24,053 nucleotides of DNA, taken from Chromera velia. Its lineage: Eukaryota > Sar > Chromeraceae. Positions within the stretch are counted from its first letter, which is position 1. Each line of letters begins with the position of its first letter. The stretch spans positions 2,998-27,050 of the forward strand of contig JAHBMJ010004416.1 of NCBI GenBank assembly GCA_018398765.1, read 5' to 3'. This document shows, in pieces, positions 4,377-23,936 of this stretch. The notes beneath the pieces were generated by a model. The model had not been told where the DNA came from. It ran no database searches and saw only the letters and a program-made list of their open reading frames with translations. Made by a program: the position numbers and the translations under genes.

Positions 4377-4578
4377 CTAGAAACGGTCCCTTCCAAAACG
4401 TGGGGGTCTTTCCGGTCGTCGCCCGTCTTTTGGCCCCACCCCCCCTTTGGCAACTGTTTCCCGAGCCTCTTTCAACCGCCGGGCGTGTGCTGCCCTCATA
4501 GAGTGGTCATGCGAACGCTGCAGCTCCTTCTCTAGGCCGTGCAACTGGGAGTTCTGAGTGTCAATCAACTCCTCAAGC
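4377..4578 (-). CDS. Giant repeat protein, exon 11 (C-terminal helix)
   Basis: Starts after CACTGCATGCAG; the first base makes an Arg codon with exon 10. It encodes RLEELIDTQNSQLHGLEKEL and then a His/Arg/Ala-rich helical segment, likely a short coiled coil. It ends Pro/Arg-rich with FGRDRF and TAG at 4379-4377. No clear AATAAA follows; an ATAAAA-like motif lies about 90 bp downstream, near 4290. Confidence 0.62.
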
Positions 4579-6511
4579 CTGCATGCAGTGACGGAAGAAC
4601 ACGAACGAAGGCACCACTCATTCACAAAGAGCAACAAACCACATTGATCGATGTGCCGGGAATGAGAAGGGCATGCAGAGCTTCCGTACACCGCTTCGAT
4701 ATACGTACCTGCCCCTATTTTGAAAATTAAGGGAAGAGAGAGAGTCCCACTTTCGCACACGGCCACGTACAGATGCCCACCCAGATGCACACACTCAGGG
4801 GTGACCGACGACCAAGCACAGGGGCCCAGAGAAAGAAGAATCAATCAAAGACAAGCCAGAAGCGGCGCTCTTTGGCCACCGAGTGCAAAGAGACGAGGAC
4901 AAGAGAATCAAACAGCAGCCTAACATTTTCTGGGGTCCGTTCTGTGCAGTGCATTTGGCTCTTGAAGGCAATAGGAAACACGGCACTGGCGCTGTGGAAT
5001 CAGAGAAGGCACTCACCTTCTGCACTGCATCAACAGCGTAAGCACTTCAGACTGAGCGGCCGCGTTGGGGTCAACCGGGCCGGCCCCAAGGTTGGGCCGT
5101 CTGCAGACAGACAGAGAGACAGACAGGCAGGCAGGCAGGCAGGCAGACAGACAGACAGACAGGCAGGCAGGGAGGCAGGCAGACAGACAGGCAGACAGAC
5201 AGACAGAGGAACAGAGAGACAGACAAAAAGGCGAAAGGGGGCAGCAGTATGTCGGTCAATTCTTTTGGAAGTGAACGCATGGTGCAGGACTGCAAAGCAA
5301 TCAGAGATTACAGTGAATGTCGGTGCCTATCGTTGACCTCCGTGGGGCCCGCAAAGAAGCAAGTCGGTCTCACACTTTGGAGCCGAACTGTTTTGTTCTT
5401 CTCTTTTCTACCAAGGTTGCTTGTGAATTACTGGTATTGACTGTTTTCTCAGCTTTTTTGCTCCCTCCCACGTCCCCTCGCAGTAGAAAGAAACACGGGG
5501 CTTTGTGAAGCGGGTGAGAGTTGAAAGAGTGTGCTGCATTTGTATGTCTTTTTTCCCGGACAGACTGAATGACTGAGTGTCTCCCTGGACACATTTTCTA
5601 CTGTACAAACGCAGCACAGCAAACAGGCTTCCCGCTGACTGACTGACTGTATTGATCGGTCCCGAGGACAGACGGACTCGACAGGGCTCCATTGGGGCCC
5701 TCTGTTGACCCCAAACGGCACCCCAGAAGGTGTCAACTGGGGACTTTCTGAAGTTAACATGGCGCCCTTGCCTATACGCATCATCGCCCCTGGATCTCTA
5801 CTCGAGTACCCCACCCGTACTCCGTCAATCATCTGGTCCTCTCCTTCCTCTTCCTCATCCTCTTCTCCAATTTCATCAATCCCAAATTCCTCTGCAGACA
5901 AACCAACAGGAATTCCCCCAACCCCAATACCCCCCTCTCCAGTCCCCCCCAAGCCTGCCTCATCTGCCTCATGGTCCATCATGTGCGCCCCCGCAGCAGT
6001 CCGCCCTCCTCTGACTGCCCTTCCGTGTTCGTCGTACAACATCTCCCCGGGACCTCCTCTCTTGCCCCTTACTCTTGCTCTTGCCCTGCCAGGAGAACGC
6101 CTGATGAGCAGAGGGGAACGATAGGCTCCTCCGGAAGCCGCAGGGAGCCCCTCCACATCCTCCTCCCCTTCGAGGGAATCTCCGGAGAAGGACCCTCCTG
6201 CCCCCCCCCTCCCTCTGCGTGCACCTCTATCTCTCCGTCTACGACCCCTCAAGCCGCGGGGGAGATACCCCCCTCCTCCTGCTGCCCCTCCATCCCCTCT
6301 CCCCCCCTCCCCATCTAGTGAAGGGTCGTCGTACAAATCCATTTCTTCTTCCTCGTCCATTTCGTCCAACAAATCCAAAAAGTCTGCACGATCCTCCGCT
6401 TCTGCAGGGAGGGACACGGGAGCAAGAGAAAAAAAGATTAATTTTTTTACGGATACAGAAACCCAATGATACACGTGCATGCAGGTCCACAGTTAGATTA
6501 AGAGAGAAATA

Positions 6512-6580
<69 letters not shown>

Positions 6581-7894
6581 CGAGAATGGAGGGAACGAAA
6601 AAGAGAGCGAACCTTCTATTGCGTCTTCAAAAGGGATCACATTTGCACCCGTCGCTTCAATTCTTCTTTGCGCCTCTGCATCAAAGTCGTCTGCAGCCAC
6701 GCCCTCAGACACAACAAAGGCCTCAAAGCCGGCCTCCACGGCTTCTGCTGCCGTCTCTTCAACTGCCGCCGACCCCACTCCCACAATGAAGAGCTGCTCG
6801 ACTCCCAAATCCCCGAGAAGCCCTGCAACCCCCTGCCGTCCCCTACCCGCCCTGTTTCCTGACTCGTCACCCTCGAGAGATTCAATCACAGTCTCGTCTG
6901 GCAATCTTTCCACGACCAAATCGCCGTCGGACTGTCTCAACAAACGATACAGGGCACCTCCTCCTGCAGCCCCCGCTACTCCCGCACCCCCCTCACCATC
7001 GGCCCCCTCGTTCCCCCCGTTTGAATTCGGAATCGAGACAATGATCTCATCAAACCCCCCACTGTCTTTCAGCTCGTTGATGTAAGGGGCCGCTCTCGCA
7101 AGCGCAGCTGCCAGGGCCGGAGGCCTGACCGAAGGGTCTACGTTGATGCCATCTGGAATTTCTCCCTCACCATGGGCGCCTCCGTCACCGTCCATCAGAC
7201 CCTTCCCGTCAACCACCAGCAGTGCAGCAACAGGCATGTCCTCCTCACTCTCCCCTTCGGAAACCGTTTGGCTGTCTTCATCCTCATCATAATAGTCACC
7301 GTCTCTGCCTCGCATCCTACGCCCTCTCCGACCTGAGACCCTTCCTCGGTCACCGTCACGTCTTCGGGGGCGGCGGCGCGTTCCCCTAGGGCTCCTCTCG
7401 TCTGAGTAGTACTCGATGCTGCCATCTGTGCCGATCGACTCTCGGCGGCGCCCTCGCCTATCTCGTAACCTGTCCCCCCCTCTCCTTGCTCGTCCACTTC
7501 GTAGGGGTCTCCCCCTTCTTTCTCCCCCCCCCCTTCTACCGCTTGCCCCAAGTCTTCCCTGGCCGCGACGAGACCGACCCAATCGCCCCCCCTCCCCTCC
7601 CCCCCCTTCTCCATCTTCGAAGGCCTCCGCCTCGTCCTGGAAAGGACGCACCTGAGAGAAGGGGAGCAAAGGGGAGCAGTCAGGTCACTCATGAGACCCA
7701 CGTGGGTAATCGGAAACGCAACAGTGCACGTGAGGCACTCGAGAGAGGCAAAAAGGAAAAACTTCGTCCGCGCCGACGCTAAGGAAAAAGCTGGTACACA
7801 GACACTTCTGTCTCAGTTGACTGTTTAGGCACGTCTAGGATGGTGGGGAAGAATGAGCAAAGAAACAACATTTGCTTCTCTCTCCGTGTGTGTA

Positions 7895-7925
<31 letters not shown>

Positions 7926-10900
7926 CCTTTTGAGAAGTCTACCTGTATGACCCCCTGGAAGACTGAACGATCATTGCATAAAACTGAGTCCGATTTACTG
8001 AGTGATTGACTGAATTGCTATTCTGCACAGATATGGTTTTCCCTTTCGTTCTCTTCTCCTTTTTGCTTCCTTCCTTCTTTCACGCCTTCCCTCCTTTCTT
8101 TCTTTCCTCCTTCCTTCCTTTCTTTCCTTCTCTTCTTCCTTGAAAGTTGCTTTCTTTCTTTTCTTCTCTCTCTCTCTCTCTCTCTGCTCTTTCTTCTATG
8201 TGCACATGTATTAATATATACATGCAGATATGTACACACAAAAAAACAGGCACGCTGACCTGTTCGTTGATGCCTTTCCACTTGCCGTCAAGTTTGGATG
8301 GAGGATGGAAGGCTCCAGATCGCGAGAGGGGAATCTCTTCTTCGGCATCCCTCAGAGGTCTCTCACGGGTCTTCCTTCCAAATTCGGGCACCTCCTCTTC
8401 CCTCTCTCCTGGCCTTCTAGCAGAATGGGGTCTCGGGGGTCTGTATCTCATCGTGCCACTAGGACCAGATCCCTCCAAAGACCCCTCGGCGGAGTGAGAC
8501 AAAGGGGTACTTTCGTCATCGTGCAGGGGGACGCGGTTTCGTCTTCTTCTTCTGCTCATCTCCCCCCGGTCTCGTGAACCCAGAGGCCGCTCCCCGCGTG
8601 TCGAACGGCCGTACGGATCTATGCGGCGGTTGTTGCGGGGACTGCGGGTACCTCGATCACCCCTGCCGCGTCTCCATCGTCCCCCACTCCTATCTCTCGG
8701 AGAGGTCAGACGATTTCTTGACTGGGGTGACCGACCTCGAAATCTGCCCCCGCCCCTTCTATCCGAACTTCTCAGACGTCGACCCCGACTGTCTCTGCCG
8801 TCTCGTCCCATTCGGCCTCCTCGGGGAGAACGACTGTTTGCGCCTCGAGGGGATAGACTCCGGGGTGATCGTCCACGTCCACCCCTGGGTGTGCTTGTAC
8901 TTCGCACACCTGCAGGAGACGTTCGGGGGGACGTCCGGGGTGATCGAGCAGAATGGGGTCTCCGACCTCTCGGAGATTCTCTTCCTTCTCCTCGTTTTCT
9001 GCTTCTGCCCGACCTCTCTGCTGCTCCTGCCGTTCGACTCGAAGTAGGCCTGCCTCTACTGCCATCTCCGAATTCATTCTCATTCTCATATTCACCTGAA
9101 GAACCTGCACCCGGGATGGGCACACGGAGAGGTGCCACACGGCTGCTGCCAGAGGGATCGGCTCCCCTGAATTCAATCGCAAGACCTCCGGCTGGTCTCT
9201 CGAGTGTTGTCATCCCAACGGACCCTCTCCGCATCACCTCGCCAGAGGAGCTCCCTCCCTCCCCAGACAAGGACATGTGCCCCCCTCTTTCAAATCTACC
9301 CCCCTCAGGGGAAGGTGGGCTCATCCCTCCTCTGCCACCTTCAGGGGAAAGGGAACCAATGCCCCCTCTACCCCTCTCATGACCGTCCAGGGGAGCAGCA
9401 ACAAACCCATCAACCAACTCAGCCTCCCTCTCCCTTCTGCGTGCAGAATTGACATGAGAGAGATTTCTGTCGGTTGCCAAAGGGGTACGGCTCCCCCTTG
9501 ATGAGAACCTTCCACCGTCAGCGCCTTCATCTAGGGCCCCTTCGTCTCCCGGACTGCCGGGGTGGCGGAGTGTGTGTCCCTGCAAGGACGTCCGTCTCGA
9601 GGTGTGCTGCCATCCGAGGTGCTCTCGGAGCTGATCGGAAGGACTTCCGGCAGATCCCCCACCCAGACTCCCCCTCTTGCTCCCTCTACGGCTCGCTCCC
9701 ATGCCAACCCCCCGGGGCCCCGGCATGCCCTCAACCCCCCCTCTAGACCCAGGCGAGGGTCCCTTAGGGCTTCCCTCAGGGCCCCCTGTGCACTGGCCCT
9801 TCGGGTGGACGTACCACGGGACGGCGTCGCCATCGGCAAAGGGGGGCGTCTTGCCGTCAGGCCCCTCTCCCTCAGCAAAATCGGAGGGGTGGGGGACGTT
9901 GTCGAGGTATGAGGATCTGCAACAAGGGGAGAGGGGTAGGGAAGGGCGGAAGAGATGAACACATCCATCAAGGTATTCCTTTATGCAACGAGATTGCGAC
10001 AGAAGAGAAGAAAATGGAAGACAGGGCGGGGCGGACGGATTCAGAGCGCTTCTCTACGTCCAGAATGCACCCATGCACACCGACACGAGGTCTCTCTCAC
10101 GCAAGAAGAGACTCCCCATAGAAGGAAATCAAACAATAAAGGATAGGAAAAAAAGTGAATGAAAGTGACTCTCTTCCTCCTTTCCTAGAGGTCAATCACT
10201 CACTCTTCAGTCCCGGGAAGGTTCAATTTCCCCTCGGGTCGGGGGAATGTCCCCAGAGTATACGCCTTCCCACTGGAATCTTTTCCCATCACTGAGGCAA
10301 CACCGTTATCATCAACAACCATGCGGAGTGGTCTCCCCATTTTGTCTCTCGTCACAATCACTGGGTGATGGTGAGTGCCTCGCATAATCACAACCGGGGT
10401 GCCCTCAGGCCCCCGCTCCAACACATCAAGTGCGGAGCCGTCCCATGCCGTTCCGAGTCGGAAGGCAGAAGCACCCCCTCCTGCCAAACCTCCTGACCCA
10501 AATGGACCGTCATCTACCGTTGCTAGTGTGTACAGTTGGTTTCTGTGATCCCGTCCGACCACCTCAACCACCCCCTCAGGTCCCCTAGGTTTCAATTTCA
10601 GTGGGAGGCCTTTTTGGTCTCTGGTCACGTACATCGTGTCACCCGTCTCATCTAGACAGAGAATCGCTACACCGCCCTCCGGAAGAGATTGCACGACAAC
10701 GTCGCGACCATACACGTCTTTTGCAGTTCTGAAAACTGAAGGGAGACCAGTCCACCCCTGGTAACTGGCTACTGTGTACGTCTGTCCGCTTCGGTCTCTT
10801 CCTATGACAGTGCGCTGCCTGGGGTCCCTTGGGTCTGCAACTATTCTCAGAGGCCCCCCACACGTGTCCCTGTCAATGACAGTGGCTTTGTTGCCCTCTC

Positions 10901-13900
10901 CGTCGAAACAGACAACAGACGGACCCCGAGGACCATCCTCCAAAACATCTACCCGCTGTCCGTGAGCATCCCGCCCGGCCAGAGCAGGCTGTTTTGGGTA
11001 GAACGCACGAGCTGCTTTGCTGGCTGTATCCATGCGGGTGCCTTCAATTCGGGCAACAACGTATTCGTTCCCGGAAGTGTCTCTTCCCAATACATGACCA
11101 TATGTCTGTCCGGGTACCTGCCGCCAAAAGAAAGGTTTGCCTGAAGAGTCGGCATCCCTCACTCTCGGCACACCTGTTGCGTCCTGCTCTTCCAGAGAGA
11201 TCAGAATGGGGCCTCTCTGGGGATCTTCTTTCACTAGAACGTGGCGCCCATTTTCATCCACACCTAGTGCACAGACCAAGCCACCCCCTCCCTTTCTGAA
11301 CGGACAAGGACGACGCGGGTCGTCTGAAGACTCAAACGTCCCCAGTTTATACCTTCTGCCCAAGTTGTCCTCTCCCACTACTGCAAAGACTCCCGGGGTC
11401 TCTTCTGGTTGAATCACAAGGGGTGCCCCTCGCTTGTCTCGTTCGACCAAAAACGGCTCACCCTGGCTGTCATGCATCAGCACAACGGGATGAAGCTCAT
11501 GGCCGGCCGCAATCACAACCATAGGACGACCTGCAAGATCGACCCCCTCACACGCTCCTGCCTTTCCGAGCTGACAGGGACCCTCAGCCCGCACAGGCAC
11601 CGAGCCGAGCTTGTATTGCGATGTGTCCGGATGCCGTCCTACGATCTCCTCTCTGCCCTCTCCTCGGGACAACAACATGTACGGACGGCCAGATCGGTCT
11701 GTTGCAGAGACCACAGCTCGACCTGCTGGGTCTCTTCCTATCGCAGTAGGAAAACCGTCGGCGCCAATCGCAACCACCAAGGGACCCCCCACTAGGTCCT
11801 TTCCTAGTTTATACTTTGCTTTGTGGTGCCTGTGCAGAGACCCCTCACCCCCTCTCAGAGTTCCTAGGAGGTATTCTCGGTCGTCTTTGTCTGTTCCCTT
11901 GACGCACGCAACTCCCTGAGAGTCGGTGAGCATCACGAGGGCCTGCCCGCTTCGGTCCCTGTCGATCAGAATGGGGGGTGACGTCTCTCCGTACGCAATC
12001 GCAACCACCTGCGCGCATCATCAGTTGAGGCGGAGAGAGAACGGATCATGTGGGTTTGAACCGCCCATGACAGCAACATATAAGAAACAGGGAATAGGCA
12101 GCAGCCCAAAACGAAAAGCGGAGACAGAAGAAGGAGTGCTCCCTTTGTCTCCCTCCCAAGCACACAACAAATGACAGAGAAAGAGAGGGGTCGAGCAATT
12201 TGGAAAGCATCGTTCTACGCACAGCCCTTCTTTGTTCTGCCTTCTCCCTCCTCACCCCCTCTTCTCTCTATCATGGCGGCACTCGAACCCGTACCTGGTT
12301 GTCTGCCTGTCTGAGTGCGACTGCCAGTCTCTGGTCTTTCAGGTCCAGGTCTGAGTTCTTCGTGTCCAGGTCCAGGAGGGGAGGGACTGCAGGGAACAGA
12401 CGACGAAAGAATCAAAGACAGTCACATTCAAACAGTGTCATGGGCATGTGCATGGTAGAGTATGGGGACAAGTTCGGCGCCTTTGAGAGCCCATACAGAG
12501 ATGAGGGCTCCAGATCGTCGGCAAAAAGAGGAATGTGCCCACATGTCGTCATTTGCACAGCAACTAAGAACATCACGAACAGTGGAACAAATGTTCTTCT
12601 AACAAAGCGTTAACGCAAAAATTATGAATCCAATTGCTCGATCAACTCACCAGTTGGTTGAAACGAGGCTATTAGGTACGGTTTCCCGTCTGAGTTCGTC
12701 CCAATGACCTCGCATGTCTCCCCCCCATTCCAGACAGGGGAAATCACTTGGAGAGGAAGTCCTACCTCGTCCGTCGTTTGGACGAATGGTGAAACCTTCT
12801 TATCACCTGTGTCTGAGGATGGTCTTTCTTCCAAATGCACAACAGAGATACGGTTTTTGGCATCAATATGCACCGCAATCTGCCGTCCTTTCGTGTCGCG
12901 ACCCTCGACAAGAACTGCCTTTCGATCCGCATCCCCACTGCCGAACAACTCCCGGGCATCTACTCGATCGTACAATCGCGCAACTCGGTACATCTCCCCG
13001 TCTCTTTCCCGACCCACAACAGATTTAGTCCCATCTCTGCCCTGTACCAACTGTAGGGGACCCCCACACGCATCTGAATCAATCATGTAGGGTGCACCTG
13101 AGGAGGCGTCAAGGCCGACTACAAGCAGATTTCCGTTGAGGTCTTCTTCGAAAACTGTTACCCTCTCTCCGTTCATGTTCGTTCCTGCTTTTGCTTTTTG
13201 GCCTTTCGGACGAAATGTTGCCAGGGTACAGGGCAAATCCTCAGAATTGTACCCCACAACTTTGAACGCACGCGCCCCCGCATCAGAGGGGAGGGGCACA
13301 ACATTCAACGGTGCACCTGTCACATCGGCAGCTATGACTTGTATTTTCCCTTCTTCTCCGGACTTCGATACAAGCACGGGCATGCCGCTGAATGCATCGC
13401 GATGGACAACCACTTGTTGTCCCTTCTCATCCCGTCCCAAGAAAAAGCAGGCACCAAACCCCCGAGGGGCATCATAGAGATCGTCATAGTAGGAGGCCAG
13501 AAGATACTCTTCCCCATTTGCATCCCTGCCTACCAAGTCGACTCCTCCATCTCTTTTAGGACGGCAACGAAGCGGCCTTCCTAGTGAGTCCCTATCAATC
13601 ATATAGGGCTCACCAGTGCCTGTCAGCCCGACCATAGCCGGCCTAGTGCCGTCCCCCCCCTCAGCCACAATGTGCACAATTCGCCCCTTGGCATCCTCCC
13701 CCAGACGTGCACGTGTGCCCGTGGCTTTGCCTCCAGGTGCTGCGACTAGGGTAGCAACAAGGTACTCTCTCCCATACACATCCTTTCCGACCACCTCTTG
13801 CACAGGCCCCCCCCCTCCAGGCTGAGGTGTCTCGACAATCCGGAGGGGGAACCCCGATTCGTCTGTCGACAGCACCTCGCACCGCCCCCTGTCGTTCAGC

Positions 13901-16900
13901 TGGCGGAGAATCTTCGGCTGCCTCCCGCTTCGGTTCATCTGAACGATCACCTGAAGACACAGACAGACAGATAGGCAGACAGGTAGACAGCAAAGGGTGA
14001 GAAAAGATGAGAAAAAAAACTAGATAGGAAGGAGATGCTTGCTTGCTCTGACGGACATGATCCAACTTGCATATGCGTAGAGAGAGCAGGCAATGGCACT
14101 GGAAAATGAAAAGCTCATAGGAAGCACAGACGCTGCCTAGGATCGAGTGGTGCATGTTTGTGTTTTTCTGATTCTCCTAGCACGCAAATTACTGCCAACG
14201 GACATGAAAAATGGTCTTCCTTCCATACCGCCAACACTTGTGCACACCCACGCAGGCAAACCCTCTCACATGTACCCGTCAACTCTTCACAGAGATTTCA
14301 CGCATGAACTTTCCCCGTACGAGAATCAATCCTTTGCCCGATGCACGCACTCACCTGCTCTCCCGAGGGATCCAGTCCCGCTCTGTACACGACACCCAAA
14401 TCAAGACCCCACTCATCGAGGTCTGAAGTCTCCTGAGCTGCGGGTTCGCAGTGTGCCACCAGGTATTTCCTTCCGGCCTTGTTAAGCCCGTCTGCCCTCA
14501 CCTCTCCCTCAAGAGTCTCCACGTATCTCAGGAGCCGCCCTCCCTCGTCATTCTGAACCAGACGCAGAATTTCGCCATTCGGGCCCACAGAGACGACAAT
14601 GGGACCCGGAAAACCGGGGGATGGGGGGAGAACAAACGCGCGATGGCCGTCCTCGTCTGTGCCGATTCGAAGGCCGTGTTGAGTCGGGTTCAAAGTCGCC
14701 ACGGCATGTTGTCTATTGTCAGCATCCCGACCTACCACATCCTCCAACCCACACCCCAAACGAGACGGCTGCATGGAAAACGGACGGCCTGTTGCATCAG
14801 TTGTGTCTGCCACGAGATACGTCTGTTGTGCTCCTGTAACAGGGTCCCTGGACCCGTCTGCTTCTGGTACTCTCTGCAGCACAATCAACCGACCGTTGGG
14901 CTGCTTGACCACCGTCACTGGCTGGTTATACTGTCCCCTTCCATACTGAAAGACAGGTCGGCCGGGACGGGACTCAGACGAACCCGGGGTCAGGGCACTG
15001 TTGATGTGGTATCTGCAAGCAGGCAGGCAGGCAGACAGGGAAGGGAAAGGAAAGGAAGGAGCAAGGGGGGAAAGATATTGGCACCTCAGAACAATGATTC
15101 ATGACAACGATATCTAGAACGGAATGTGTGTGTGATGATTGTGTTCCCTCATTTGAACATTTGTGGCATTCCGTTCATCCTTCCCTGCATCCTATCCGAA
15201 GTTCTGCATATTCATGACATGTCTGCTTCCTCTTCGTCTCTCTTTCTGTGGATGTGCGAATGTCTTGCAATTTACAATGGAGTCTGTGTGTCACTCATGA
15301 GGTGCCTGTAAATGAACACAGGGATGGATGTTGCGTGGTAAGTCCTGACTAACACCACTTTTGATTGCAATCGATTGTCCTCACTCACGTTCAAACAGTC
15401 CAAATTGATTTAAACAAAAACGAAAGACTGACTTGCACACTTCTTCCCTCACTCCGTGATCCCCCCTCATGAGCACGTGGCGGTCTCCGTTGGGCTGTGA
15501 GATCAATTGCAAGGGAGTGCCGTCGCTCCCCTGCAGTCGGAGCGTCTGCAGACCAGTCGCGTTCTCTCTGTGCAAAACAGCTGGTCTCCCAATGTCCCTG
15601 CGTTCCCACACAATGGATCTGTTTCCATTCACATCCGTTCCCTCGTATGCGGCCTCGCGTCTCTCGACAAAACCTATGATGTAATCTCGACCCCTCTCGT
15701 CGGTTCCTACCAACTCTAAGGCTCCCGGCTGTCCTTTTGCATCTCGAAATCTTAGAGGTCTGCCTGACGTATCTTGGTCTTGTCTGAATGCCTCTCGCCC
15801 TTGTTTGTCGTACGCAGTCATCACAATACCCATCGCGGGGTGTCGTCTGTTGCGCTCTACGACAATCGTGTTACCGTTGAGGTCTTCTCCCAAATAATAG
15901 ACCTTAGTATCCTCAGGCCTCCCTCCCATCCCCCCCCCTCCTGAGTCCTCTCCAGGACGGAGAAGATCAGGGTGTCTCGATAGGTCGGCTGCAGGCATCT
16001 CCATGCCCTCTGTCGGCAACCGCGCTTGCTCGAGTACTTCCTCGGGAGATCGGAATTCAATAATGCCCCGGTCGTTGCCCTCTCTCTGTAGTGCCGTTGC
16101 AGTGGCACTCCGCGGATCTGATTCATCAAACGATCCCAAGACATACTCCTCTCCTGACAAACTCACACCGACAACGGAGGTTCTCTTCCCTTCCCGTCGA
16201 AGAGAAAGGGGACGACCTCTCTCATCAGAGTCGACAATCATGGCATCCGCCAGACTGCCGCCAGACCCCCCGCCCTCTCCGTCTGTCCCCCCATGGTGAA
16301 TGACGAGGGGCCTGCCTGCAACGTCCGCTTCTACGATCGTTACCCGTCTCCCTCTCCCGTCTCTCCCGTCTCTGAATCCATCGAAATTCTCGTTGAAGAA
16401 AGTGCAGACAAGGTAACGATCCCCATCAGCATCCGTCCCCATTACATCGGAATATTCATTTCCCTTGCTTGAACGTGACACCTCGAGAGGTTTCCCTGTC
16501 TTGTCTGAATTGATGACAGTCACCGGTCGATGCCGCTCGCTAAAGGGCGGACGGAGGATGACAATAGGAAACTTCCCACCTCCTTCTGCTGACGCAAACT
16601 CTCGTAAATGGTCACTCGCAGACGCGTCGCGAAGTTCAACGACCGCCGTCCGCCCTGACAAATCACGACCGATGAAGTACTCACTTCCCAGCAATCGACC
16701 CTGTCGACCATGCAAAGGGCCCCCCGGGTCCCCTGACAGTTCATCGTAGGTCGCCACAAGGTAAGTTCTCCCCACTCCATTCTTCCCTTCGATTCTGTAC
16801 GTTTTCTCACCTGATCCTCCCTCTTCTTCTCTCACTGTCAGAGGCCGACCATTCTCGTCCCTTTCCAACAAACTGGTCGGCTTTCCCGATCTTCTGTCGC

Positions 16901-19160
16901 ATCTGACCACGACAGGAAGACCATCAGTGCCGGATCTCAGAACATACACGGGAAGACACTCACCCGTTGCTGCATCGGGGGCCCCGATTCCCCTTCTGAA
17001 AGGCATTGGTCGTGCCCGCACCGAGGCAATCACCTCTCTTCGTCCTTCCCGGGTTTTTGCAATGATCTCGTACATGTGCTTTGCCCCCCCCGGGACCGGA
17101 CAAATTTCCAAAGGGCCCCCATCTGGGCCTTCATGGAGCGTGGCGGTGCCTGACTCGGGCATACGGGAGAGCACAACGACCCCTCCGCCCTTTTCAGAGC
17201 GACACACGACCAACTCTCTGCTCATCGAGTCCGCCAAGCTGCCAACCTGCACGAAAATACAAACAAAGAATGCAAGGTATCACAAAAGATTTCATGCACA
17301 GATACATTCATCTGTTTTCAAAAGCAATTTTCATTCGGCTGTTTGGATATCAAGCCATTCAAATTAGCGTCTTGTACACGACGACGCAGAAAAATATACC
17401 AAAAATCCCTTTATTTCGACCGCTGCGTTGCACGTACATCATTTGAGAAGGCTCCCTCCGATCCCTCTACGGACCTGACGGTTTGCCCCCTCCTTCAGCC
17501 CATACAAATCGATACCCGCCTGTGTGTACATGCCTGGGCCCACCAACACAGCGTCGACCTCAAAGAGCCCCCCCGGCCCATCTGCCCCCTCGTGACCGAA
17601 CCGCCGACGCATCAGAGCAGTCGTATCAGGGTCGCCTAGCATGTCTGCGTCTACATCGGCAACTCGGGCGTTGGCAAGGGGGTCTTCTCGAAACTCAAAT
17701 TCTCCATTCAAAGTCTGCCCCCCACCACTTGCCGCTCCATCAGCACGCCGCTCGAACAACCCCGCACCCCCGGGAGCACACCTCATTACCGACTCGTACG
17801 GACCCGGAATCAAAGCATTCCCCCCCGCACCCCCTCCTGTGTCTGTTGTGGGGGGCACGAGGACTGCGACTACATACTGTTCTCCAGACACCCCCGTCCC
17901 AACTACCGTTTTCGGCCCGTCCGGACTTTCAATCACTCGGAGAGGAAGCCCACGCTCGTCCGAGTCGACCACCTGAGCATGGTGAAGCAGACTCAAATTT
18001 CCTTTCAACTCCCTCAAATCCGCTGCGAGCACTACGCAGCGACCCGCCACATCCTTTTCTAGCACCGTCACACGACGGCCCCGCAAATCGATGGCAGATC
18101 GGAGTTTTGTGTGCCCATCTGCCAAAACGGTACACACCTGCTTTCCGGGCCCATTGCTTGCCAGAGAATCTTCCCCCGTCCATACATCAATCTCCCTCTC
18201 CCTTCCTGACCCCGGTGGAGCAGGAACCAACAAAAGATTACGTCCGAAAGTTCCCGAGTCGATCACTTCAGTCACCCCCCCTCTCCCTGCACCACCTCCC
18301 GTTGAATCCAAATGCCGACGTTGCAAAGTGACAACAGGCCGACAGGCGGGATCTGAGATGGGCGCACCCTCAGGCACCTCCACCTCAACAAACGCAAAGT
18401 TGCCCTCTGCATCCCGACCGAAAAAAACATCCATCTGGCGACCCCCTGCATTTCGCGGTCTCCCTCCAACGAGTGTTCGTGAAAGTTCGGATGGGTCTGC
18501 CACATCGTTGAACGCAACTTGTTTGGCATGTTCAGCATCAAACGGTGTGAACGAATACCCTCCACCCCCAAACCCGTTTCGACTCTGTAGTCCCCCCCCG
18601 GCAAGTAGGTGCTGACCCTCAGCTTGGAGAGTTGCAAAAGCCTCCTTGTCCGCTCGAGAGACCACATAATCAGGCGGCCTGAAGGGGCTACCGTCTACAG
18701 ACAGAAGCTCCTGGGCACTGCGGGGCGCCAGAACTGTCCTTGAAAGCTCATGAAACGATGCAGCCTGGGCTTGCAACGGCGCTTGCAAGCGAGGATCGGC
18801 AGTTTGAAACCCCGGGCCCCCTGCGTTGGAGAGCTGATATGCCGGGGCCCCTGGGGATGAAAAGGGCAAACCCCCTCCAAGAGGGTGCATTCCAGGAGAT
18901 CCCCCTGTGCTCATGTGCCCAGGGAAGTGTGAGAACCCCCCTCCGCCGCCATGCCCATACGGTCTCTGCTGCTCTGCATGGAAGCCTCGGCGAGGGCTGA
19001 GACGGTCCGTGGGGGTGGACCGGAGCTTCCTTCTCAACGGCATAGACCTTGCACCTTGAGGCTGCTGCGTCCCGAGCACCCTCCTCGAGGTGGTCCTGGA
19101 CACAGACGATGTGCCTGGGGCCCTCCCTGCACATGCACATGCATGTATGCATGCATGCAT
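4377..19160 (-). CDS. Giant modular repeat protein with pseudo-isochorismatase domain, 11 exons
   Basis: Exons from 5' to 3' on the minus strand: 19160-17475, 17246-15433, 15012-14355, 13950-12651, 12386-12295, 12008-10204, 9916-8260, 7651-6613, 6401-5648, 5100-5017, 4578-4377. All ten introns (211-608 bp) are GT-AG, and exon phases match throughout. That gives 3,696 codons before TAG, or 3,657 from the Met at 19043. Order of parts: Gly/Pro-rich N-terminus; about 22 degenerate modules of 75-110 residues; Arg/Ser/Gly-rich region; a hydrolase-like domain lacking its nucleophile; acidic and basic tracts; charged helical tail. The module consensus is roughly xVxVxExDxxGxPxVV, then VxRDxxGxPLxxV, then VVGRDxxGxxYxLATF, and a linker ending DxxGRx. 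This suggests short beta strands joined by Asp-Gly turns. I see no signal peptide or membrane segment. The repeat family is unknown to me. The single-gene model is inferred from splice logic; two or more adjacent genes remain possible. Confidence 0.72.
5017..5100 (-). CDS. Giant repeat protein, exon 10
   Basis: An 84-bp exon located by splice logic. The 3' splice site is CTGTCTGCAG, directly downstream (minus strand) of a 120-bp CTGT/CTGC repeat, and the 5' splice site is AG/GTGAGT. It reads RPNLGAGPVDPNAAAQSEVL and then a Leu-rich helical piece. The phases (2 in, 2 out) fit both neighbours. Confidence 0.6.
5104..5224 (+). repeat. CAGA/CAGG tetranucleotide repeat at a 3' splice site
   Basis: About 120 bp of slightly imperfect CAGA and CAGG units. 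On the coding (minus) strand this is CTGT/CTGC, forming the pyrimidine tract directly before exon 10 of the giant gene. Confidence 0.95.
5648..6401 (-). CDS. Giant repeat protein, exon 9 (acidic and basic tracts)
   Basis: Begins after CCCTGCAG in phase 1 (the G of exon 8 plus AA makes Glu), giving EAEDRADFLDLLDEMDEEEE. Then come Gly/Arg-rich RRRRDRGARRGRGG, a mixed region, and a second acidic run, EEDEEEEGEDQMIDGVRVG. No repeat modules are present. It ends ATA CA/GTCAGT, where the GTCA unit continues three times; only the first GT keeps the frame open into exon 10. It is probably mostly disordered. Confidence 0.7.
6515..6583 (+). repeat. Compound microsatellite (CA)n(GA)n
   Basis: An AC dinucleotide run (6515-6546) passes directly into an AG run (6547-6572, imperfect to 6583). 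It lies in intron 8 of the giant gene, close to the exon 8 5' splice site. Confidence 0.95.
6613..7237 (-). other. Isochorismatase/nicotinamidase-like domain, probably inactive
   Basis: About 208 residues. The N-terminal strand ALLVVDGKG keeps the position of the family's catalytic Asp (codon 7210-7208). The C-terminal half, LGVEQLFIVGVGSAAVEETA followed by EAGFEAFVVSEGVAADD and ATGANVI, matches the family pattern of strand, GVxTxxCV-TA loop, helix, strand, DA-A and a final strand. The Cys nucleophile position just before V-x-x-T-A is Ala (codon 6766-6764). The catalytic Lys region (DLVVERLP) has Arg rather than Lys. Active enzymes hydrolyse nicotinamide, isochorismate or related amides; this copy should not. 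Fold assignment is from motif recognition, without a profile search. Confidence 0.6.
6613..7651 (-). CDS. Giant repeat protein, exon 8 (basic tract plus pseudo-hydrolase domain)
   Basis: Starts after TTCTCTCAG in phase 0 with VRPFQDEAEAFEDGE. An Arg/Gly-rich tract and an acidic DYYDEDEDSQ segment come next. From about 7237 to the exon end is a globular domain resembling the isochorismatase/nicotinamidase fold (entry below). It ends GAA G/GTTCGC, phase 1, followed in the intron by (CT)n(GT)n. GTTCGC is a weak 5' splice site, but the phase and the Glu codon it forms with exon 9 fit. Confidence 0.75.
7898..7925 (+). repeat. (GT)n microsatellite
   Basis: About 14 GT dinucleotides within intron 7 of the giant gene. 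Confidence 0.95.
8041..8193 (+). repeat. Polypyrimidine tract with CTTT/CCTT and CT repeats
   Basis: About 150 bp that is almost all C and T on the plus strand, so a purine run in the giant gene's transcript. It lies near the 5' end of intron 7. Such a homopurine-homopyrimidine stretch can form triplex DNA. Confidence 0.9.
8260..9916 (-). CDS. Giant repeat protein, exon 7 (Arg/Ser/Gly-rich)
   Basis: Starts after TTGTTGCAG; the first base completes a Glu codon with exon 6. No repeat modules are seen. The 552 codons are low complexity: SPEGG repeats, then a long Arg/Ser/Gly/Pro-rich stretch with SPRTSPRTSP, RSPRG and RGG-like elements, then a short segment ending GKWKGINEQ. The region is probably disordered and rich in potential proline-directed phosphorylation sites. 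It ends CAG/GTCAGC, phase 0. Confidence 0.78.
10204..12008 (-). CDS. Giant repeat protein, exon 6
   Basis: The exon with the cleanest repeats: about seven modules in 601 codons. It starts after CGCGCAG with VVAIAYGETSPPILIDRD and ends GA/GTGAGT, phase 2. Module ends include REYLLGTLRG, RRYKLGTFES, NEYVVARIEG, QTYTVASYQG, QLYTLATVDD and KAYTLGTFPR. Dipeptide turns DxxG or DRSG recur about every 15-20 residues. Copies have diverged well below easy nucleotide similarity, so the array is old or diversified. Confidence 0.85.
12295..12386 (-). CDS. Giant repeat protein, exon 5 (short linker exon)
   Basis: A 92-bp exon between CCCTGCAG and CAG/GTACGG. Its phases (1 in, 0 out) fit both neighbours. 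It encodes about 31 charged residues containing LLDLDTKNSDLDLKDQRLAV, probably a short helix. It contains no repeat module and separates the module block of exon 4 from that of exon 6. Support is splice-site and phase logic only; it has no recognisable homology. Confidence 0.6.
12651..13950 (-). CDS. Giant repeat protein, exon 4
   Basis: Begins after GTCTTCAG in phase 0 with VIVQMNRSG, a module start. About five modules follow, ending REYLVATLVA, EEYLLASYYD, LPCTLATFRP, EMYRVARLYD and KPYLIASFQP. The 5' splice site is G/GTGAGT, phase 1. The module boundary falls close to the exon boundary, as in exons 3 and 6. Confidence 0.82.
14355..15012 (-). CDS. Giant repeat protein, exon 3
   Basis: The 3' splice site follows a CTGT/CTGC repeat ending in TTGCAG. 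The first base completes a Lys codon with exon 2. It encodes about two modules after a Pro/Ser-rich linker (VVGRDADNRQHAVATLNP; NKAGRKYLVAHCEP). It ends GAG CAG/GTGAGT in phase 0, within DPSGEQ, so the next exon resumes exactly where a new module should begin. Confidence 0.8.
15433..17246 (-). CDS. Giant repeat protein, exon 2
   Basis: It begins after TTTTCGTGCAG, phase 0, and ends at AA/GTCAGT, phase 2. It carries about six modules. Recognisable module ends are RTYLVATYDE, DRYLVCTFFN, EEYVLGSFDE and RDYIIGFVER, and module starts include GRGRRVTIVEADVAGRPLVI. One linker, between the fourth and fifth modules, is extended to about 65 residues and is Pro/Gly/Glu-rich. Confidence 0.8.
17410..17415 (-). 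terminator. AATAAA inside intron 1 of the giant gene
   Basis: On the minus strand this signal lies 24 bp after the in-frame TGA (17441-17439) that ends the unspliced exon 1. If intron 1 is retained and the signal used, a short isoform of about 530-570 residues would be made, covering only the N-terminus and the first modules. Alternatively it marks the true end of a separate gene. Motif evidence only. Confidence 0.3.
17475..19160 (-). CDS. Giant repeat protein, exon 1 (N-terminus)
   Basis: The frame opens at an ATG at 19160, inside a GCAT microsatellite. Another Met is at 19043, in a more protein-like context. A CAG at 19129-19127 could be a 3' splice site, in which case further 5' exons exist. 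The protein starts basic, then becomes Gly/Pro-rich (HGGGGGFSHFPGH). After an Ala/Gln/Leu-rich stretch the repeat modules begin: one divergent copy around VFFGRDAEGNFAFVE and one clear copy around DLRGRRVTVLEKDVAG to SGEQYVVAVL. The 5' splice site is CAG/GTCCGT at 17474, phase 0. Read through that site, the frame stops at TGA 17441-17439. Confidence 0.65.
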
Positions 19161-21205: not shown

Positions 21206-21641
21206 GATGCCGGAGTGGACAGGCCGGACAGGCCGCTAAAGAAGAAGGAGACGGCTACGAAGAAGGAGACGCCAAGATACAGAAAATACCGGGTCACTCC
21301 CAGAACTCCACACACCAGTCCGTTCTACAAAAGAGCACTGACAGTCAATCAGGGGATGTGTCCTGATGGCAACGATACCTTATTCAGCTCTGGGGACGTA
21401 CTGGTTGTGAATCCGGATTCTCATCCGGACCAGATTCCAACATTAATGCAATGACGCAACATTCAGTTTAATCATGTTTCGATCTTCGACGGCAGTCAAT
21501 TAAAGCAGATCCATCATGTCAGATCTGGCATTGTTGCTAGTCATTGTTGATCGATCGAGCTGTCGGTGTTGGAAGCGACAGAACAGCACATTGTCCTGGG
21601 TTTGGTCAGTTACCGTAGAAAGAGTTTTTCACTCTCCTCAT

Positions 21642-21659
21642 TGGTATATCGATATACCA
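21642..21659. repeat. Perfect 18-bp palindrome
   Basis: TGGTATATCGATATACCA is its own reverse complement. It lies 34 bp before the 3' splice site of the SUMO-like fusion ORF, just outside the candidate mobile element. It could be a binding site for a dimeric protein or an insertion footprint. Confidence 0.85.
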
Positions 21660-21693
21660 GTCTGATGACCTAGTGTTGAACTCTTTTTTTCAG

Positions 21694-22626
21694 ACTTCGT
21701 TTCTATCCCACTCCTGTGAGCGTGTAATGCGGTGTCCACGCCCGAGGCACAGCCGTCGTCTTCCCCTCCAGCCGACCAGGGGGAAACACGAGTTGCTGAA
21801 GGATCTCTGTAGTTGCATCAATGAACATTTTGACAAGAGCCTCTTCTCAGACGTACTCGACCGGTGGGCATCCACGGAATCAGAGAGAACAGACATGATT
21901 GACTGTTACATTCGCTGTCTTGCCTTCAAGGCACTTATGAACGACACCATGGTAGAGTCTCTCTCGATGCCTGCTCAGATCGACGCTCTCTGGCACGAGC
22001 ACGTGTTAGAGATATAGAGCTACGTGAAGCTCATGCAGCTCCTCGAGACCAAGTACGATGTCCCGTTCGTCCACCACAGCTCCCGTCTTGCGAAGGATAG
22101 GGAGGCGCAAGCTTTGCGCTTTTCTCTCATGTGCACCGTCTACGGGCGGTTTTTTCCGAATGCCGACATGAAAAAGTTCATCAAATGGGACGAGCCCTTC
22201 CAGTTGGATACAGATGATGAAGCCCCACAGCAGCCCCAGCAGCCCCCGCCACTGCCCGCGCCCTAGCCCGCGCCGCCACTGCAGCAACAGCAGCAGGGGG
22301 CAGGGGAGGAAGGGGGGGACGCCGATCCCCCACCCTCTCCAGTGTGGGGAGGTGCACCCAACCCCGAGAGAAACTGGAAGGATGGCCTGCATCTGAATCT
22401 GAGGGTGCGTGCTACGGATGGACAGGAGATCCACTTCCGAATCAAAGAAACCACACGGCTAGAGAAGCTTATGAACGCATACTGCCAACGTCTGGGACAG
22501 AACATCGATGCGGTCTGCTTCATGTTCGACGGTGAGGCCGTGGCCAAAGAACAGACCTGCAGAGAAATCGTCGGGCTGGGGGACTGGGGTCTGCTCGATG
22601 CGATGCTGCCTCAGACAGGCTGCTGA
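21694..22626 (+). pseudogene. WHxH-domain and SUMO-like fusion ORF with two in-frame TAG codons
   Basis: One frame stays coherent from a likely 3' splice site (TTTTTTTCAG, 21693) to TGA at 22624-22626, broken only by TAG at 22015-22017 and 22264-22266. The first possible Met is at 21727. The first domain holds IDALWHEHVLEI, then SYVKLMQLLE and FVHHSSRLAKDREAQALR. That fits a conserved WHxHIL domain I recall fused to ubiquitin-like modules in algal proteins. A Pro/Gln-rich linker follows, then a SUMO-like beta-grasp domain (LHLNLRVRATDGQEIHFRIK, LMNAYCQRLG, FMFDGEAV). The end is QTGC where conjugable SUMO has QTGG. Both TAG codons could derive from CAG by one C-to-T change. Most likely a recent pseudogene; stop readthrough or editing would be the alternative. 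Confidence 0.6.

Positions 22627-23871: not shown

Positions 23872-23936
<65 letters not shown>
23872..23936 (+). repeat. Compound microsatellite (CA)n(GA)n
   Basis: A CA run (23872-23904) passes directly into an AG run (23905-23936). It has the same architecture and orientation as the repeat at 6515-6583. Confidence 0.95.

Follow-up and report, generated by a model that had tools for sequence, protein, structure and literature searches.

What kind of protein is encoded by the giant, repeat-bearing gene on the minus strand of a Chromera velia contig? The window analysed here is a stretch of 24,053 nucleotides (assembly GCA_018398765.1, contig JAHBMJ010004416.1, positions 2,998 to 27,050 of the forward strand), and coordinates below are those of the window unless another contig is named. 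A preliminary description had placed there, at 4377-19160, a modular protein of about 3,660-3,700 residues and of unknown family. The reading that we consider most likely, with about an even chance of being right, is a giant cytosolic scaffold built as many seven-stranded beads on a string, a tether or spring. Its first two thirds would consist of about 22 independently folding seven-stranded β-domains on flexible linkers. Behind them would come a tail rich in Arg, Ser and Gly, basic and probably disordered, then a nicotinamidase-like domain, an acidic segment and a C-terminus that is short and charged. The beads would supply length and many binding faces and the tail would act as an anchor, making the protein a long tether, spring or ruler with multivalent binding.

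The gene and its repeat modules

We rebuilt the gene by hand from the minus-strand open frames 19190-17439, 17279-15381, 15098-14298, 14019-12622, 12017-10200, 10053-8080, 7684-6239, 6492-5449 and 4844-4377, adding two short exons between them (12386-12295 and 5100-5017). As first described, eleven exons are joined by ten GT-AG introns, which are 211-608 bases long, and phases agree at all ten junctions. From the ATG at 19043 the coding sequence has 10,944 bases and yields 3,647 residues, just short of the size originally given, which is reached from the alternative in-frame ATG at 19160 (3,686 residues). The reading frame is open through all 11 exons. The two alternative frames contain 7 to 34 stops each across the eight exons of at least 658 bases and 0 to 4 in the three short ones. 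GC content is 41-52% in the introns and 67, 53 and 55% at codon positions 1, 2 and 3, the first position lying at 63-73% in each exon. If retained, nine of the ten introns would introduce stops, intron 8 being the one without any; skipping exon 5 breaks the frame, and exon 10 can be skipped without a frame change. On this sequence evidence, the giant gene is real.

The modules occupy exons 1 to 6. Exon 1 (17475-19043, residues 1-523 from the ATG at 19043, with the second in-frame start at 19160) encodes a Gly/Ala/Pro-rich N-terminus and modules 1-2, and exon 2 (15433-17246, residues 524-1127) encodes modules 3-8. Modules 9-10 and the beginning of module 11 lie in exon 3 (14355-15012), the remainder of module 11 and modules 12-15 in exon 4 (12651-13950), the beginning of module 16 in the 92-base exon 5 (12295-12386), and its remainder with modules 17-22 in exon 6 (10204-12008). 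The whole array, broken by introns 1-5, covers 10245-18422 on the minus strand (residues 208-2399). Because splicing lifts the scores of the two split modules, introns 3 and 5 have independent support: module 11, cut by intron 3, scores 63.6 bits when spliced, whereas its parts alone score 53.8 and 1.0 (a gain of 9.8), and module 16, cut by intron 5, scores 52.2 bits against 44.8 and -0.3 (a gain of 7.4).

A module profile was trained on eight seeds from the gene itself and then iterated, with domain matches accepted at E ≤ 1. It gave 26 matches, of which 23 fall within residues 208-2399 and represent 22 modules, one being split in two; the remaining three lie in the tail (E 0.5-1) and were discarded as chance. 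Refined with a second gene described below, the profile again gave 22 modules, so that the earlier count of about 22 stands. All of these except module 1, which has 17 bits, reach 20 bits or more over 45 or more positions (21 of 22), and reversed frames gave no match to the refined profile. The module core is about 75 residues long, and its consensus is a strand meander with DxxG-type turns, which passes through GRPLRVV and VVGRDADG on its way to YVVAT. Motifs of the kind noted at the outset, strand ends GxPLxxV and YxLATF with DxxG turns between them, are more frequent than in shuffled sequence. The module region holds 67 DxxG (shuffle mean 23.5, maximum 41), 14 G.P[LF]..[VIR] (0.45 by shuffling) and 11 Y.[VLI]A (0.77 by shuffling). 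Linkers between modules range from 7 to 134 residues with a median of 17, and five of the 21 have 10 residues or fewer.

To a single module, AlphaFold2 assigned a confident fold. Module 20 (10746-10994, minus strand, 83 residues) was modelled alone with a predicted local distance difference test score (pLDDT) of 94.5 and a predicted template modelling score (pTM) of 0.84, and shows seven strands and no helix. When three consecutive modules were modelled, as the preliminary description had proposed, each again showed seven strands, with one helix of three residues and a pTM of 0.57. Values of pLDDT below 50 were confined to the first five residues and the two linkers.

Cellular location, tail and gene boundaries

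The highest 19-residue hydropathy of the predicted product is 1.51, indicative of no clear membrane span, and no signal peptide is evident by eye, without a predictor. The module region contains 26 cysteines across about 2,200 residues. We prefer a cytosolic tether or spring because of these features, namely no clear span, no signal peptide by eye and few cysteines, together with the many beads and the basic tail. Within this reading we infer that every module folds independently, that the protein is cytosolic and acts as a tether, and that the nicotinamidase-like domain has lost catalysis. The rival readings are not mutually exclusive, and two of them are the chief ones.

The first is a secreted or surface adhesin, or a cell-wall protein, which we consider unlikely. 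In its favour, the top match of the module profile in the Protein Data Bank (PDB) is a lectin, the start codon may be either 19043 or 19160, and robust walls surround chromerid cells (PMC6212826). Against it stand the few cysteines, the Arg/Ser-rich tail and, for the predicted product, the lack of a signal peptide by eye and of any clear membrane span.

The second chief rival concerns the tail. Exon 7 (8260-9916, residues 2413-2965) is rich in Gly, Arg, Ser and Pro and carries a net charge of +40, and exon 8 (6613-7651) begins with an Arg/Gly-rich stretch, followed by the nicotinamidase-like region; arginine makes up 27.5% of residues 2966-3103. Exon 9 (5678-6401), preceded by intron 8, is acidic and Gly-rich, exon 10 (5017-5100) has 84 bases, and exon 11 (4377-4578) encodes the short charged C-terminus and the stop codon. 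Two or more genes could be present instead of one, the module protein stopping around exon 6/7 and the tail with its nicotinamidase-like part forming a protein of its own. For comparison, exons 7 and 8 have no further copy in the genome (no other match at E ≤ 0.001). Several points limit the case for a single continuous gene: introns 6-10 have no homology or module-score support of the kind seen for introns 3 and 5, the junction at intron 8 is doubtful and is the weakest of all, and phase match alone is weak proof, given that there was a choice of donors and acceptors. Yet the phases agree at every junction, and all exons lie on one strand with similar codon-position GC throughout, so we hold a split gene to be improbable, to the same degree as a surface location. 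Dinucleotide runs occur at 6515-6585 (in intron 8), at 7886-7925 (in intron 7) and at 23872-23936.

The region at 6614-7249 on the minus strand is a probable degenerate isochorismatase/nicotinamidase-like domain. Residues 3100-3311 match the isochorismatase family PF00857 at E 5.8e-5 (23.7 bits against a cut-off of 27), in the C-terminal half only, and match the nicotinamidase 1ilw at E 6.4e-4 and an alignment of three isochorismatase-type frames of the same genome at E 5e-4 with a probability of 31. The N-terminal half of the family has no match, and the tail probably carries a nicotinamidase-like half-domain. Isochorismatase-like hydrolases use a catalytic cysteine; its column holds alanine in both alignments, with 1ilw and with the genome's own frames, and the domain is probably no longer an enzyme. 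A genome-wide search for the family gave four matches above the cut-off elsewhere, the stretch in the giant gene not being among them.

Family and fold of the module

Pfam and NCBIfam were scanned with nine of the 11 exons of the window gene and PHROGs with five. No Pfam or NCBIfam model reached its cut-off, and PHROGs and PDB sequence searches gave only weak matches. Set aside as weak were two Pfam matches in exons 2 and 4, DUF1176 (E 0.016) and TseB (E 0.067), NCBIfam ureidoglycolate lyase in exon 6 (E 7.4e-6, with 26 bits where the cut-off is 260), phrog_12126 in exon 6 (E 9.3e-6, without any single stretch passing) and PDB chains of DNA gyrase (E 0.03 and 0.12). Rfam gave no match at gathering score over the window, and phage records gave no match; the sole match among plasmid records (E 0.3, a VirB4 gene) was set aside. 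One scan each of bacterial/archaeal and of viral contigs with exon 6, in which only close relatives are detectable, gave 22 and 4 pattern matches and none confirmed. Among eukaryotic genomes, the search for relatives of the module covered this one alone, and a literature search found no description of the family. Within the libraries tested, the assignment to an unknown family holds, and the module domain looks new and apparently undescribed. If so, its profile would annotate both giant genes and any dinoflagellate or apicomplexan relatives.

For the fold comparison, the single-module model was weighted above the three-module model. It gave no match at E ≤ 0.001 against the PDB or a viral structure library, and the nearest solved folds, weakly, are PH/PTB/FERM-F3 domains (IDOL F3ab, the FERM domain of 4.1R, and the PH domains of p63RhoGEF and p190RhoGEF), with which it shares seven strands and a similar domain size. 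The PH/PTB superfold is defined by a seven-stranded β-barrel or sandwich and by a C-terminal α-helix that caps the barrel, whereas the module model has no such helix. A tentative and rather doubtful extension of the scaffold reading would be that in a photosynthetic relative of apicomplexans a minimal, helix-less PH/PTB-like domain was amplified, to about 22 and 55 copies in the two genes, into a titin-like family of springs or rulers particular to this lineage, the dead nicotinamidase perhaps serving as a head for binding or sensing. We know of no PH/PTB-like fold in giant spring or ruler arrays of this kind, and to our knowledge few giant tandem-domain scaffolds outside animals are understood. 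Giant tandem β-domain proteins such as titin (PMC3859903) likewise derive length from many β-domains in a row; they differ in that their host group is unrelated and that no Ig or FN3 profile matched at E ≤ 1 in the nine window exons scanned, a result that concerns sequence profiles and not the fold. In the second gene, the Ig_CycH match (E 0.029) reached 14.5 bits, short of its cut-off of 27.

More clearly disfavoured is the idea that the modules are β-propeller blades and that the array closes into several propellers as in PLL-type lectins. The best PDB match of the module profile is the lectin CV39L (E 8.9e-6, and 1.7e-5 in another run), with which the modules share a VVGxDxxGxxYLV-type strand motif. 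Foldseek returned 39 matches at E ≤ 0.001 for the three-module model, most of which we take to be propellers (PLL lectins, Sec13, TolB), and the first 42 or so module residues superpose on single PLL-type blades with a root-mean-square deviation (rmsd) of 2.3-2.5 over 41-42 residues. A β-propeller, however, is a ring closed by four-stranded blades, whereas each module has seven strands, neither four nor eight, and the three-module model shows no matching ring. The CV39L match comprises several weak stretches, none passing alone, and a lone module was modelled with high confidence. Moreover, in 50 Foldseek rows for the three-module model the template modelling score by query was 0.13-0.20 and the rmsd 15.9-22.8, indicative of a different blade arrangement; Foldseek and VIA gave chiefly single-blade and Rtt106-type matches for this model.

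Least probable of all is a continuous β-sheet, either the Rhs/YD-like shell that the preliminary description raised along with a β-solenoid or a repeating-β-groove lipid bridge. The strand-DxxG-strand meanders recall such proteins, as do sub-threshold matches: of the six pieces into which the contig of the second gene was divided, one matches RHS_repeat (PF05593, E 0.0013) with 19.6 bits where 22 are required, and the module profile matches teneurin-type chains in the PDB at E 0.17-0.82. However, no RHS/YD repeat profile is among the matches for the nine window exons scanned, linkers vary widely in length, and the confident lone module with its low-confidence linkers speaks against a solenoid or shell. 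RHS/YD repeats form a continuous shell rather than separate domains, in contrast to the discrete units modelled here, and repeating-β-groove bridges consist of five-strand units that make one long groove, against seven strands per module in the model.

A second gene and the growth of the arrays

The genome searched has 4,040 contigs that add up to 177.8 million bases, and module searches within it gave matches on contigs C2816 and C3290. Over 799 bases the ends of these two contigs are 99.5% identical, and both carry an array of a 59-base-spaced unit, which adjoins module exons where both contigs break (L024, right end, and L025:559-799); they are therefore most simply one locus broken at a repeat. 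This second gene holds 55 module matches, some partial, with 51 on C2816 and four beyond the overlap on C3290; two further C3290 matches are the overlap counted twice and were excluded. Of the 55, 49 pass the same threshold of 20 bits over 45 positions, and 24 of the matches lie in one open frame of 2,445 codons. Between the 22 window modules and the 49 second-gene modules that passed the length filter, mean pairwise identity is 27.7%, compared with 27.7% within the window gene and 31.2% within the second. The best match lies in the same gene for 11 of the 22 window modules versus 48 of the 49 others. On a further contig, C3671:8908-11601 (L044), minus strand, module fragments lie in seven short frames (E < 0.01, best 2.5e-10) and may represent a decayed third copy of the family.

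Growth by exon duplication, with module starts often at exon ends, had been proposed for the window gene; it fits the second gene better. There, exon-wise duplication is well supported: the last module match ends at profile position 56 in six of the eight exon frames examined, an in-frame phase-0 GT beginning at that point, and by eye five exon frames begin with CAG, followed in phase 0 by VVG, VVG, VLG, LVG and VVS. The second gene thus offers a clear example of an array that grew through phase-0 exon units, all cut at one fixed point of the domain. Within its long exon, a 344-base block is 81% identical to another block, and a 382-base block is 87% identical to another exon, pointing to more recent growth there. 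Mean module identity in this gene was higher at even lags (0.339, 0.355, 0.325 and 0.342) than at odd lags (0.305, 0.307, 0.303 and 0.323), which, with means compared without a significance test, hints at two-module units.

In the window gene, the module region has six junctions, of which four fall at module ends or beyond them, against about 24% expected. Computed by hand, P is about 0.03; it rises to about 0.16 if intron 2, no more than two residues from a module end, is counted as inside. No internal exon that carries modules is phase-symmetric, and neighbours are the best match for one of 22 modules versus 1.96 expected; exon duplication is thus weakly indicated for this gene. Its DNA (10001-19100) gave no match to itself at E 1e-3, and its array therefore looks old.

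Elsewhere in the window, a 28-base unit is repeated in tandem at 1417-1504 (3.1 copies, 96% matches), and a plus-strand frame at 22267-22626, to which exon frames upstream at 21619-22266 may belong, matches a Rad60-SLD/SUMO-like domain (E 3.3e-13). Across the genome, 58 light-harvesting and 11 IMCp (alveolin-type) matches fit a photosynthetic alveolate such as Chromera velia, an alga related to malaria parasites. Three closely similar light-harvesting frames (L038, L039 and L040, of 213, 213 and 182 residues) lie on different contigs, the last being cut by a contig end.
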